From positions 1-37,807 of the forward strand of contig JAFGGA010000223.1 of the NCBI GenBank assembly GCA_016930835.1: 37,807 nt of DNA, read 5' to 3'. The notes under the pieces are model-generated. The model was given only the letters and a program-made list of their open reading frames with translations, was not told the DNA's origin and did no database searches. The stretch's first letter is position 1. Each line of letters starts with the position of its first letter. Shown here piece by piece: positions 10,907 to 15,563 of the stretch. The stretch is from Deltaproteobacteria bacterium (GTDB taxonomy: Bacteria > Desulfobacterota > DSM-4660 > Desulfatiglandales > HGW-15). Made by a program: the position numbers and the translations under genes.

Positions 10907-11131
10907 TTAAACCGCGACAACCTTTTCAATCTCTGGAACGTTTTGTTTTAATATCTTCTCAATCCCCATCTTAAGTGTCATTTGAGACATGGGACATCCC
11001 GCGCAGGCACCTTGAAGCTTAACCTTAACAACACCGTCATCACCAACATCAACCAACTGAACATTTCCACCATCCGCCTGGAGCGAGGGTCTAACCTTAT
11101 TCAACGCTTCCTCCACTTTTTGTCTTAACAT
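10907..11131 (-). CDS. NifU-like Fe-S scaffold (Nfu domain)
   Basis: A 74-residue stand-alone Nfu domain, the C-terminal module of NifU/NfuA. It has the QADGGNVQLVDV strand and a CAGCPMSQMT loop whose CxxC (Cys43, Cys46) binds a 4Fe-4S cluster between two protomers. The role is to carry Fe-S clusters to client enzymes. An Fe-S-rich cell is consistent with MiaB, the SPL-type enzyme and the FadH-like flavoprotein in this window. GGAGGT lies upstream of ATG 11131. The gene ends at the shared bidirectional terminator. Confidence 0.88.
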   Translation of the reverse strand: MLRQKVEEALNKVRPSLQADGGNVQLVDVGDDGVVKVKLQGACAGCPMSQMTLKMGIEKILKQNVPEIEKVVAV

Positions 11132-11204: not shown

Positions 11205-12299
11205 TTAACCCTTAAATAATAACCTTACCCTTTCATCTAGATAATGAGCAAGACCTTCGTTGTTGCGCGGTGACCACCCAAAGCTTTTTCTCCACACCTC
11301 ATGACTCTCCATGCAAAGATAAAGCCCAATATTCGTATACCACTTATCGATGATATCGTGCATAAAAGTATACATCTCAATGCGAACGGGTTTAAAATAA
11401 CGCTGTTTCCCATCCAAACCGATAATAAATTCATCATCTAATATCCCTGAATTCGGATGTCGAGTTCGGATAATCTCTTTAAGTGTGGGAATATATCGAA
11501 AACATCCTAAGCTCATCCATATAATATTTTTAGGGTTAATATATTGGTCCATCAATTCAACAATCCTGGCATATTCTTCTTTCCATCGAGCATGATGGAT
11601 CAGAGGGTCAAAATGAAATCCTAAAACATAACCTTCCTCCTGGCATTTTTTGGCAGCTTCTAATCTCTTTTTTATGGATGGGGCTCCATTTTCCTCATTC
11701 GCTGCGATTCTCATACTATTTAGAGACCATGACACAATCATGCGATCACGGAAAGGGTTTGACAGCATACCGTCTATTTGATCTGTTTTGGTTTTAAATT
11801 CTAAAACAGCATTTTTTCTATCCTGAAAGAATTTCGGTAAAATACGACTCCATTCGGTGATATGATCCAATGCCAGGCTATCGGTAAATTCCCCAGTGCC
11901 TACCCTGAATATCTTTTGGGGTTGCGAATCCATTAACCGCGCGATTTTGGGAAGCTCATTTTCAAGATTCACAAACACGCGTAAAGATGGCTGGTTGAAA
12001 TAGGCTTGAAGGATGCAATAACTACAATTGAATGGGCAGTTCGTCCCAACATTAAGAATTTGATATCCACAACAAATATATTCCTTCGTTCCAGGACATG
12101 GTTTAAATAATGAACCTTGAAATGGAATCAACCTTAAGGTCTCTTTATCCATATCAATGTATTGAACATTCGATTCAGCCCCTTCCGTGATCGGATGATT
12201 CGGGGTCGATTTTAGTCGGTTGATAATTCGAATGCTCTGGTCATATTGCTCTGCGCCTGTCTCAATCAAGAGATTTTTTATGTTAATTTTTTTCGACAA
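11205..12299 (-). CDS. SPL-family radical SAM protein
   Basis: A 364-residue radical SAM enzyme of the spore photoproduct lyase family. The cluster motif C-x3-C-x2-C is Cys88, Cys92 and Cys95 in NCPFNCSYCILQAYF, with extra cysteines at 68, 76 and 77. The region that in true spore photoproduct lyase holds the hydrogen-donor cysteine reads GTGEFTDSLALDHIT here, with no cysteine. Repair of spore photoproduct is therefore not supported, and the organism gives no sign of sporulation. Its start overlaps the end of a ParB-like gene by 17 nt, so the two are translated together and probably work together. The substrate is unknown. Confidence 0.78.
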   Translation of the reverse strand: MSKKINIKNLLIETGAEQYDQSIRIINRLKSTPNHPITEGAESNVQYIDMDKETLRLIPFQGSLFKPCPGTKEYICCGYQILNVGTNCPFNCSYCILQAYFNQPSLRVFVNLENELPKIARLMDSQPQKIFRVGTGEFTDSLALDHITEWSRILPKFFQDRKNAVLEFKTKTDQIDGMLSNPFRDRMIVSWSLNSMRIAANEENGAPSIKKRLEAAKKCQEEGYVLGFHFDPLIHHARWKEEYARIVELMDQYINPKNIIWMSLGCFRYIPTLKEIIRTRHPNSGILDDEFIIGLDGKQRYFKPVRIEMYTFMHDIIDKWYTNIGLYLCMESHEVWRKSFGWSPRNNEGLAHYLDERVRLLFKG

Positions 12300-13314
12300 G
12301 AATTGCTTCCCAAGGTTCCGAAAAATGTTCGATTTTTTCGACCATCGATAATTGATCGAGAGATTCTTTAAGCTCTTGTCCTGTTTTAAAAGAAATCTCT
12401 AGTCTGTAGTCCGATGCCTCAAAAAAAGGTGGATGAATCATCCGAACACGTTTTGGAAGATTCATGTCACTTATCATCTTATTAAATGCCGTTTCAGTTT
12501 GCGTTAAAAGCGGATATTTTTTCCATTTTAAGAAACCTAATATCTTCTTTGTTTTTTGCGGCTTATTTAAATGATTATTGCACAGTATTTCCATGAATGG
12601 GGCTTGATTGATTATTCCGCTGATCGTTTGGTTTTCTTTTTTTGATACATCAGTAATATATTCAATGAATTGCAGTTGTTGATTAAAATTAAGGTTTAAA
12701 TCTGTGATCAGACCAGTCACGAGTGATCGAGAATCACCATCCATTTTTAAGATCTGCCGCACAGCTTTGGGAGAAATTTTTTCATAAATAACCGCCTCTT
12801 TTAGTCGGCCGTCCTGGTCATCAAGCTCTAAAAAAAAATCTATTTCCCGTAAAGAAGTTATTCCGAGAAGCGATATATACCGATCAGAAATTTCTTGCTT
12901 GGAAAAATAGTTGCTCAATCGCTTTAAGATCATTCCTTTTTCTACTGGATTGAATGACCTCATGACGAGGTTATCCTGAAGATTGCATAAGAATAACTCC
13001 TTAGCGGATAGCCCACAATCGGATAAATCAAAAACTGGAACACTTTTCCATCCAATGGATTTTAATGCCGTTATCCTGCGATAACCCATAATCACATCCA
13101 TTTGCCCTTCCCGGTTCTTGGTTACATAAGGTGGATTTATTAACCCAAAATCTTTAATAGATTGTATTAGTGGATCTAAGAAAAAACCAAAGCTTATCGT
13201 AAATGGCCCTGGACCCTCTTTTATCCGATCAAGATCCATGTAGACAGGACCCTTATTGGCATGTCGCTGTATATCCATAATTTTCCATTCCGTTTGATTA
13301 ATATTATTTTTCAC
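12283..13314 (-). CDS. ParB N-terminal-domain-like protein
   Basis: A 343-residue protein whose first ~100 residues resemble the ParB/Spo0J N-terminal (ParB/Srx fold) domain: a LIQSIKDFGLINPP segment, then the MGYRRITALKSIGW box (GYRR at 77-80), which corresponds to the GERR nucleotide-binding motif. A helical middle part (NPVEKGMILKRL..., FSKQEISDRYISLLGI at about 143-158) resembles the ParB helix-turn-helix region. The C-terminal ~100 residues are not recognised. No parA is nearby, so a chromosome-partition role is not supported. The start is GTG 13314 or ATG 13278; neither has a strong ribosome binding site. It overlaps the downstream radical SAM gene. Confidence 0.7.
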   Translation of the reverse strand: MKNNINQTEWKIMDIQRHANKGPVYMDLDRIKEGPGPFTISFGFFLDPLIQSIKDFGLINPPYVTKNREGQMDVIMGYRRITALKSIGWKSVPVFDLSDCGLSAKELFLCNLQDNLVMRSFNPVEKGMILKRLSNYFSKQEISDRYISLLGITSLREIDFFLELDDQDGRLKEAVIYEKISPKAVRQILKMDGDSRSLVTGLITDLNLNFNQQLQFIEYITDVSKKENQTISGIINQAPFMEILCNNHLNKPQKTKKILGFLKWKKYPLLTQTETAFNKMISDMNLPKRVRMIHPPFFEASDYRLEISFKTGQELKESLDQLSMVEKIEHFSEPWEAILVEKN

Positions 13315-13634: not shown

Positions 13635-15563
13635 ATGAGTAGAATAATGAAAAAGCTGTTTACACCTTTCCAAATCAAAAAATGCCGTCTAAAAAATCGT
13701 ATTGTTATGCCTCCCCTAGCATCTTTTCTTATTGAAGATGATGGCTCCTATTCTGAAAAAACCATTGAACATTATCGTAGACGGGCTGCTGGCGGTCCGG
13801 GAATGGTCATTATGGAGGCCCATGGCGTATCGCCCGAAGGTATAGTTTCCAATCATCAGGCCAGGATCTATGACGATCGTTTTATTGAAGGGTTGTCGAA
13901 AATCGCTCATGTCATGAAATCCGAAGGTGCGGTCCCGGCCATTCAGATCCATCATGCAGGAAGGCAAGTCCCCTCGAGGGTAATCAATCGCAAACCATTC
14001 GCGCCGTCACCCCTACCCTGCCCTGCGATTAAAGGTGATGTAGAACCTTTAACCTTTGATGGTATACAGGCAATCGTTCATGCATTTGGTCAGGCCGCAT
14101 CCAGGGTAGTTCAAGCCGGTTTTGAGCTTATAGAGATACACGGCGCCCATGGATACTTAATCAATCAGTTTCTTTCCCGTTTTTCCAATATCCGAGAAGA
14201 TGAGTATGGCGGTAACATCACCGGCCGGACACGTTTTGCGCGTGAAATTGTAAGAGAAGTCCGAAAACAGGTTGGAGATAATTTCCCTATCTCATTCAAA
14301 ATAAGCGCCCAAGAGTTTGTTCCCAAAGGGCTTACAACTGAAGAAAGCATCGAGATACTCAAACAATTGGTGGAAGAAAGTATTGATATAGTTCAGGTAT
14401 CTGCGGGAAACGACGCGACTCCGGAATGGATTTGCCAGCCTATGTTTATGAAACAAGCTTGTTTAGTGGATTCAGCCGCCAAGATCAAAAGAGCTTTGAA
14501 CATCCCTGTTATGGTCGTCGGACGCATAAATGACCCACGAATGGCTGATGTGATTATTATAGAAGAGAAAGCGGACTTAATCTGTATGGGGAGAGGACTT
14601 TTAGCCGACCCGGAATTGCCCATGAAAGCAGAACAAGGGCGCTTAGATGATATACGGAAATGTATTGCGTGCAATACATGCATGCAATCCATATTTCGAA
14701 AGGGCAGGATAGAATGTCTGGTAAATCCAAGACTCGGACGTGAGAAAGAGATGGAATTACTCCCTACTCCTTCTCCTAAAAAAGTAATGGTGGTAGGAGG
14801 AGGACCGGCAGGATTAAATGTGGCTTGGGTGGCGGCCAAGCGAGGACACGATGTATCCCTCTTTGAACGGGAACCGTCCCTAGGCGGGCAGCTGGTCTTA
14901 GGCAGCATATCGAGTTACAAAAACGAAATACTGAGCCTTATTGGTTTTCAAAAAAAACAGATTGAAAAATACGGTGTGAAGTGCCACCTAAATACGGATG
15001 TAACAGTCGACATGATTAGGGTACAAGATCCGGATGTCGTTGTTCTAGCCACCGGTTCTATCCCGATAATGCCCCCAGTGGAAGGTACTGATAGCCCTAT
15101 TATCTTATCGATACCGCAGATACTTAATGGCATCAAAAAAACAATTAAAAACACCGTCATTATCGGAGGCGGAGCAACAGGCTGCGAGATCGCATTACAT
15201 TTATCGGGGCAGGAGTGTCATGTCACGATTGTGGAGATGCTTCCCAAGATCGGCACGCAAATTGAATCCATGACCCGAAAGGTGATGTTACAACGGTTGC
15301 GCGATTGTCATGTTGAAATCCTTACCGAGCATAGATTGCGCAAGGTCACGGATCTGAGTGTTATCTTAAATGATAAACAAGGTAAAGAAATCACCTTGAC
15401 CTGTGATAGTGTGGTAATTGCCACAGGTACAAGCCCCAATAATAAACTCTTCGATCAAGTCAAATCACTGGGACCGAAGGTCTATCAAATTGGAGATTGT
15501 CGCGAGGCCAGAAGCGCAAAGGAGGCTATCTTTGAAGGCTTTTCAATTGGAATCGCCATCTAA
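13635..15563 (+). CDS. FMN/FAD/4Fe-4S NADH:flavin oxidoreductase (FadH/old yellow enzyme type)
   Basis: A 642-residue multidomain reductase. Residues ~5-330 form the old-yellow-enzyme TIM barrel (NRIVMPPLAS, AIQIHHAGRQ, EIHGAHGYLINQFLS, GRGLLADPE). A cysteine cluster follows at Cys343, Cys346, Cys349 and Cys361 for a 4Fe-4S centre. Then comes an FAD/NAD(P)H module with VVGGGPAGLNVAW (~385) and IIGGGATGCEIAL (~513). This is the layout of 2,4-dienoyl-CoA reductase and trimethylamine dehydrogenase, so electrons run NAD(P)H-FAD-FeS-FMN to an enone or enoyl substrate. Cys346 to Cys349 is one residue closer than in E. coli FadH. ATG 13647 is an alternative start. The stop overlaps that of the convergent rfbD-like gene by 3 nt. 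Confidence 0.88.
   Translation: MSRIMKKLFTPFQIKKCRLKNRIVMPPLASFLIEDDGSYSEKTIEHYRRRAAGGPGMVIMEAHGVSPEGIVSNHQARIYDDRFIEGLSKIAHVMKSEGAVPAIQIHHAGRQVPSRVINRKPFAPSPLPCPAIKGDVEPLTFDGIQAIVHAFGQAASRVVQAGFELIEIHGAHGYLINQFLSRFSNIREDEYGGNITGRTRFAREIVREVRKQVGDNFPISFKISAQEFVPKGLTTEESIEILKQLVEESIDIVQVSAGNDATPEWICQPMFMKQACLVDSAAKIKRALNIPVMVVGRINDPRMADVIIIEEKADLICMGRGLLADPELPMKAEQGRLDDIRKCIACNTCMQSIFRKGRIECLVNPRLGREKEMELLPTPSPKKVMVVGGGPAGLNVAWVAAKRGHDVSLFEREPSLGGQLVLGSISSYKNEILSLIGFQKKQIEKYGVKCHLNTDVTVDMIRVQDPDVVVLATGSIPIMPPVEGTDSPIILSIPQILNGIKKTIKNTVIIGGGATGCEIALHLSGQECHVTIVEMLPKIGTQIESMTRKVMLQRLRDCHVEILTEHRLRKVTDLSVILNDKQGKEITLTCDSVVIATGTSPNNKLFDQVKSLGPKVYQIGDCREARSAKEAIFEGFSIGIAI

Follow-up and report, generated by a model that had tools for sequence, protein, structure and literature searches.

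By analysing a 37,807-nucleotide stretch of DNA (contig JAFGGA010000223.1, hereafter the window) from a deltaproteobacterium, we identified two overlapping genes, encoding a ParB-like protein (PAR) and an SPL-like radical SAM enzyme, whose conservation among relatives indicates that they are a functional pair, real and old. At roughly even chances, the two proteins would together form a radical enzyme that acts on DNA or RNA, the ParB-like subunit serving to present the substrate. The window corresponds to contig C68 of a 95.5%-complete genome of 4.7 Mb. Both genes lie on the minus strand. PAR (343 aa; 12283-13314) is upstream and consists of a ParB/Noc-type NTPase domain, an HTH region, family-specific helices, and a C-terminal helix-strand-strand-helix. 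The SPL-like gene (364 aa; 11205-12299; assigned by PF20903, AlphaFold, and Foldseek) follows downstream. The start codons of the two genes are GTG and TTG, and the reading frames overlap by 17 nt (12283-12299, minus strand); the overlap claimed in the original prediction is exact, as are the coordinates, strands, and start codons. Most adjacent PAR/SPL-like pairs overlap by 1-25 nt, with 4 nt being the commonest. A search for a terminator between the two genes and for a strong promoter yielded nothing above chance. The next gene downstream of the pair encodes an NFU-type Fe-S carrier (74 aa; 10907-11131, minus strand; PF01106, 106 bits). The divergent neighbour on the other side (window positions 13635-15563) encodes an old-yellow-enzyme flavoprotein of the BaiCD/2-enoate reductase type.

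A survey of conservation had been proposed along with the original prediction, and it revealed that the pair is conserved well beyond close strains, also when the genes are unlinked. Among 98 relatives, PAR was found directly upstream of nearly all SPL-like genes at 50-62% identity. For co-occurrence, 197 genomes drawn evenly from the phylum, each at least 90% complete, were screened with thresholds of E <= 1e-50 for the SPL-like protein and E <= 1e-30 for the ParB-like protein. SPL-like genes were detected in 111 genomes, ParB-like genes in 107, both in 102, and neither in 81 (Fisher p = 3e-38, by a test that ignores phylogeny). The two genes were adjacent in 68 of the 102 genomes containing both and unlinked in the other 34, where they sat either on separate contigs or on a single contig at distances of 6 kb to 2.3 Mb. 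Two near-complete genomes (G098 and G133) lack both genes, though their families otherwise carry them, and the survey of relatives added two more genomes without either (G029 and G080). Retention or loss of one gene almost always goes with that of the other, however distant the two are in the genome. Adjacency and co-occurrence span 46 families of one phylum and are far beyond chance.

Inspection of eight of the nine SPL-only genomes (all but G304) revealed a divergent or shortened PAR directly upstream of the enzyme in seven of the nine (G173, G179, G214, G225, G247, G299, and G306) and a possible in-frame PAR-enzyme fusion (weak match, 14.7 bits) in G257. A 504-aa frame (L285:1560-3071) may fuse a degenerate part of PAR to the enzyme (weak match, 14.7 bits). 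For the 34 scanned loci having no adjacent PAR, a full-length PAR is encoded elsewhere in most of the genomes. In a separate scan of named genomes, SPL-like relatives were also detected in KSB1, Caldithrix, Zixibacteria, and Omnitrophota, and an adjacent PAR partner was seen in the KSB1 and Caldithrix genomes.

Within the taxonomic order of the host, the block is PAR, SPL-like gene, and NFU, and genes for MiaB, NAD kinase, and a GGDEF response regulator lie close by. In many members of the order, as in the window, NFU directly follows the pair in the same orientation. The NFU gene adjoins the pair in 30 of the 49 scanned SPL-bearing loci and is probably co-operonic with it within this order only; it is not beside the pair in distant lineages. 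More distant lineages have PurC, IHF, glycosyltransferases, RNase G, SSB, and DnaJ as neighbours instead, and therefore the conserved unit is the pair, not the wider block. An IHF-like gene adjoins PAR in many Desulfobulbales. No recurrent DNA-repair genes were found in the scanned neighbourhoods, which contain mixed housekeeping genes. A family 2 glycosyltransferase is often encoded directly upstream of the pair or the lone enzyme in distant lineages (L086, L089, L090, L151, L158, L279, and L282), and PurC occupies this position in other distant lineages. In one family, a small HAD-like phosphatase (about 160 aa) is encoded directly upstream of a shortened PAR (L275:3763-4242, L277:428-910, and L276:3814-4308). 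A mobile or defence system was considered and rejected, as plasmids and phages yielded distant SPL-like proteins but no close relatives, and no PADLOC system was detected.

The downstream protein contains the C-x3-C-x2-C radical SAM motif that had been read from the sequence (C88/C92/C95; 12015-12038, minus strand; 89 of 89 sequences) and matches PF20903 (SPL) with 109 bits, above the cut-off. It scores 112.7 bits against the SPL equivalog TIGR04070 (cut-off 400) and 38 bits against TIGR03886 (SPL family protein). Its AlphaFold model (pLDDT 94.9) was matched by Foldseek to SPL over the whole length (TM 0.79-0.81 of the query and 0.84-0.86 of the target; E 3e-24; 21% identity); other radical SAM enzymes among the matches listed reached a TM of at most 0.47 of the query. 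In a tree, the main PAR-associated group, the other GE-type paralogs, and the SPL/TIGR03886 members each formed one set. SPL proper was rejected as an identity for the enzyme, since it falls below the TIGR04070 cut-off and the Bacillus-type catalytic residues are replaced. The same genome encodes a second SPL-like radical SAM protein (L102:8960-10267; contig C154 of the host, G000), which belongs to a different group, has GELADS and LCKES motifs and lacks the counterparts of C68 and C77; no ParB-like partner was found for it.

Further examination of the catalytic residues showed that Tyr96 of SPL is retained as the invariant Y94, and that the position of the relay residue Tyr98 is occupied by I96 (Ile in 75, Val in 9, Phe in 3, and Ala in 2 of 89 sequences). 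The position of Cys140, the donor of Bacillus-type SPL, is taken by E137 (89 of 89) of a GTGE motif (residues 134-137; 11889-11900, minus strand), which we take to resemble the GGE motif by which other radical SAM enzymes bind SAM. Relative to SPL, the substrate hairpin is shortened by about six residues. Upstream of the cluster motif, the segment CPGTKxYICCGY (12069-12098, minus strand) contributes C68 (89 of 89), C76 (88 of 89), and C77 (89 of 89), and near the C-terminus C329 of an LCMES motif (11313-11315, minus strand) is conserved in 89 of 89 sequences. C329 is also present in enzymes without PAR, namely in related SPL-like groups having GE(F/L/M)xD, and two divergent PAR-associated enzymes (L293 and L294) lack C68, C76, and C77. 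The donor cysteine of SPL had been described as missing; this holds for the Bacillus-type donor (C140 to E137) but is incomplete, as the invariant C68, C77, and C329 are present. Since alternative invariant cysteines exist, the argument from the lack of a donor needs revision.

Cys140 is the hydrogen donor of Geobacillus SPL (PMC3742179), and that of Clostridium acetobutylicum SPL is C74, located across the pocket (PMC5368176). According to its title, one PDB entry is a C140A/S76C variant of SPL, in which S76 is mutated to Cys, and the references of PMC5368176 include a paper whose subject is a rewired hydrogen-transfer path of SPL. In our alignment, C68 corresponds to S76 of Geobacillus SPL; going by these titles, it would occupy a site from which a donor cysteine can act in SPL. 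The comparison with the clostridial-type donor, an N-terminal cysteine near Geobacillus position 76, runs through this S76C position and makes C68 a candidate for that role; L293 and L294 lack it.

PAR matches Pfam ParB_N (PF02195) with 29.8 bits (cut-off 26.3). HHalign aligned it with the chromosomal ParBs of relatives at 99.6% over residues 22-217 (188 columns; NTPase domain and HTH region), and Foldseek matched its AlphaFold model (pLDDT 95.4) to ParB, Noc, KorB, and the Noc DNA-binding domain. Foldseek also matched it weakly to SbnI and SerK, and the score against the SbnI family was 14.5 bits (cut-off 350). Box I (C motif; residues 52-61; 13132-13161, minus strand) is conserved at S52 (98 of 103 sequences) and G57 (101 of 103). 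Box II (P motif GxxR; residues 77-80; 13075-13086, minus strand) is the GYRR box of the original prediction, located inside the PF02195 match and conserved at G77 (101 of 103) and R80 (100 of 103). A Box III-like motif (residues 114-125; 12940-12975, minus strand) includes Asp or Glu at 114 (87 of 103), N115 (74), R119 (81), and E125 (95). The C-terminal 55 residues form a helix-strand-strand-helix that may correspond to the ParB dimerisation domain, given a similar pattern and a short motif match but an HHalign probability of just 12.7%. As the original prediction noted, parA does not accompany the gene: a scan of the window's first 19 kb and of neighbourhoods in relatives turned up no ParA-like P-loop protein, the sole match belonging to a chromosomal parAB control locus. 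PAR was therefore rejected as a chromosomal ParB, having no parA, while relatives have a separate ParB. Searching the host genome for ParB_N yielded nothing besides the window's PAR; a chromosomal ParB was not found there, perhaps owing to incomplete assembly. No shared palindromic site was found upstream of PAR genes.

Shortened forms of PAR (about 170-250 aa) were detected in one family (G156, G189, G214, and G238) as well as in G287, G225, G247, and G306. They match about residues 150-322 and lack the NTPase domain and most of the HTH region, and they are still encoded beside the enzyme. The retained part (about residues 166-322; 12349-12819, minus strand) points to the C-terminal half as the constant part of PAR. 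ParB folds bind CTP, ATP, or GTP, and which of these is bound is not predictable from sequence (2025 survey, PMC12704722). The shortened partners found in several lineages argue against CTP gating as a general feature; lacking the NTPase domain, they imply that NTP switching cannot be essential everywhere.

We infer that the two genes encode subunits of one enzyme, acting as a physical complex. The SPL-like protein would be the catalyst, its [4Fe-4S] cluster cleaving S-adenosylmethionine, and the resulting 5'-deoxyadenosyl radical would attack a nucleobase of DNA or RNA. A cysteine other than that of Bacillus-type SPL, with C329 and C68 as candidates, may then quench the radical left on the product or the protein. 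PAR would be the dedicated partner that presents or clamps the nucleic acid through its ParB-derived domains, and in full-length PAR the NTP pocket may switch the clamp. This explanation is supported by the overlap of the genes, their conserved order, their co-occurrence even when unlinked, their joint absence from members of families that otherwise have both, and the divergent or shortened partners in SPL-only genomes. Further support comes from the relation of PAR to ParB over the NTPase domain and HTH region, from that of the enzyme to SPL over its whole length, and from the alignment of C68 with S76C, together with the use of C74 by clostridial SPL. Counting against it are the mixed housekeeping neighbours without recurrent repair genes, the shortened hairpin, the lack of C68, C76, and C77 in L293 and L294, and the partners without NTPase and HTH parts. 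The reaction would be lesion reversal or base modification, with a slight preference for lesion reversal, on the ground that this is what the only characterised relative with the full-length fold does. As a speculation, DNA damage in dark anoxic sediment could include radical-derived thymine lesions. A bolder form of the explanation, which we regard as unlikely, is that an NTP-switched ParB-type clamp carries the radical SAM enzyme along DNA, reversing or making a base lesion or modification in the dark, independently of light, anaerobically, and outside sporulation.

Several other explanations were weighed. The pair might install a radical-dependent modification at a specific position of DNA or RNA, with PAR as the specificity subunit and repair playing no part. 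The housekeeping contexts (MiaB, NAD kinase, PurC, RNase G, SSB, and IHF), the lack of recurrent repair genes nearby, the replacement of the Bacillus-type donor cysteine and Tyr98, and the shortened hairpin are all in line with this. So are the genome-wide searches: neither a SASP gene nor a photolyase gene was found in the 95.5%-complete host genome. (The absence of sporulation genes noted in the original prediction holds for SASP, the sole gene class examined.) Against these points stand the lack of any known candidate modification and the fact that the only characterised full-fold relatives are lyases, so that we consider such a modification system possible but doubtful. A second Fe-S cluster in the enzyme, bound by C68, C76, C77, and C329, supplied by NFU, and used for electron transfer or for sulfur insertion as in LipA or MiaB, would be compatible with the two-component radical enzyme. 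It is suggested by the strict conservation of C68, C77, and C329, the near-invariance of C76, and the frequency with which NFU adjoins the pair. Yet distant lineages have no NFU beside the pair, the PAR-associated L293 and L294 lack three of the four cysteines, and C329 occurs in enzymes without PAR; we rate such a cluster as rather improbable.

In a further explanation, nucleic acid is not the substrate. PAR would be a Noc-type nucleoid or transcription factor that the radical SAM enzyme modifies or for which it senses redox, as its ParB/Noc HTH region, its NTP motifs, and the adjoining IHF-like gene in many Desulfobulbales could suggest. This seems quite improbable, given that the enzyme is also accompanied by PAR forms from which the NTPase domain and most of the HTH are missing, and that PAR genes share no upstream palindromic site. 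The least probable explanation, for which we see very little chance, is a small-molecule pathway in which the ParB fold is kinase-like or NTP-processing, as in SbnI or SerK, and the radical SAM enzyme acts on the product. ParB folds can act on small molecules, and weak Foldseek matches to both proteins exist, but the ParB/Noc matches are far stronger and include the HTH region, and several lineages lack the NTPase domain.

Compared with SPL (TIGR04070, PF20903; PDB 4FHC to 4RH1), the enzyme has in common the whole fold, the radical SAM motif, Tyr96 (Y94), the core Lys (K171), and other core residues. It differs by its low identity in the structural alignment (21%), Glu for Cys140, Ile for Tyr98, other invariant cysteines, the shortened hairpin, the lack of a SASP gene, and the ParB-like partner. 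Similarity to TIGR03886 is distant; two of its members, both from plasmids, were examined, and they possess the donor Cys, have no C329, and group in the tree with SPL, apart from the PAR-associated set. PAR shares with chromosomal ParB/Noc the NTPase domain (Box I, II, and III-like), the HTH region, and, more doubtfully, a C-terminal helix-strand-strand-helix pattern, whereas it has no parA, an altered Box III spacing, a long helical insert before the C-terminal part, and a radical SAM partner, and its hosts' relatives have a separate chromosomal ParB. Orphan ParB-CTPase-fold proteins represent a ParB fold outside parAB that is reused with enzymes such as methyltransferases (PMC12704722); the main text of that survey contains neither "radical" nor "photoproduct". 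An SPL-like enzyme is likewise combined with a proposed DNA-binding partner where SOS operons encode SplB-like enzymes together with ImuB-C or SRAP (PMC3765255); the main text of that paper contains no "ParB". In agreement with the claim of an undescribed system, no description of the pair was found in the literature searched, an absence that is no proof of its being undescribed, and no published function unrelated to DNA was found for either partner.

Both kinds of protein are known, whereas no description of their pairing was found in the literature searched. Many sulfate-reducing bacteria and their relatives carry the pair (46 families of a single phylum, as well as KSB1 and Caldithrix genomes), which occurs across non-spore-forming anaerobes, so that its function is a common one. 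Cultured hosts carrying the SPL-like gene include Thermodesulfatator autotrophicus, Desulfacinum infernum, and Desulfobulbus elongatus. If our explanation is true, the pair would link a ParB NTP switch to radical chemistry and would be an instance, open to experiment, of SPL-type chemistry beyond spores in which the hydrogen-donor cysteine has changed naturally.
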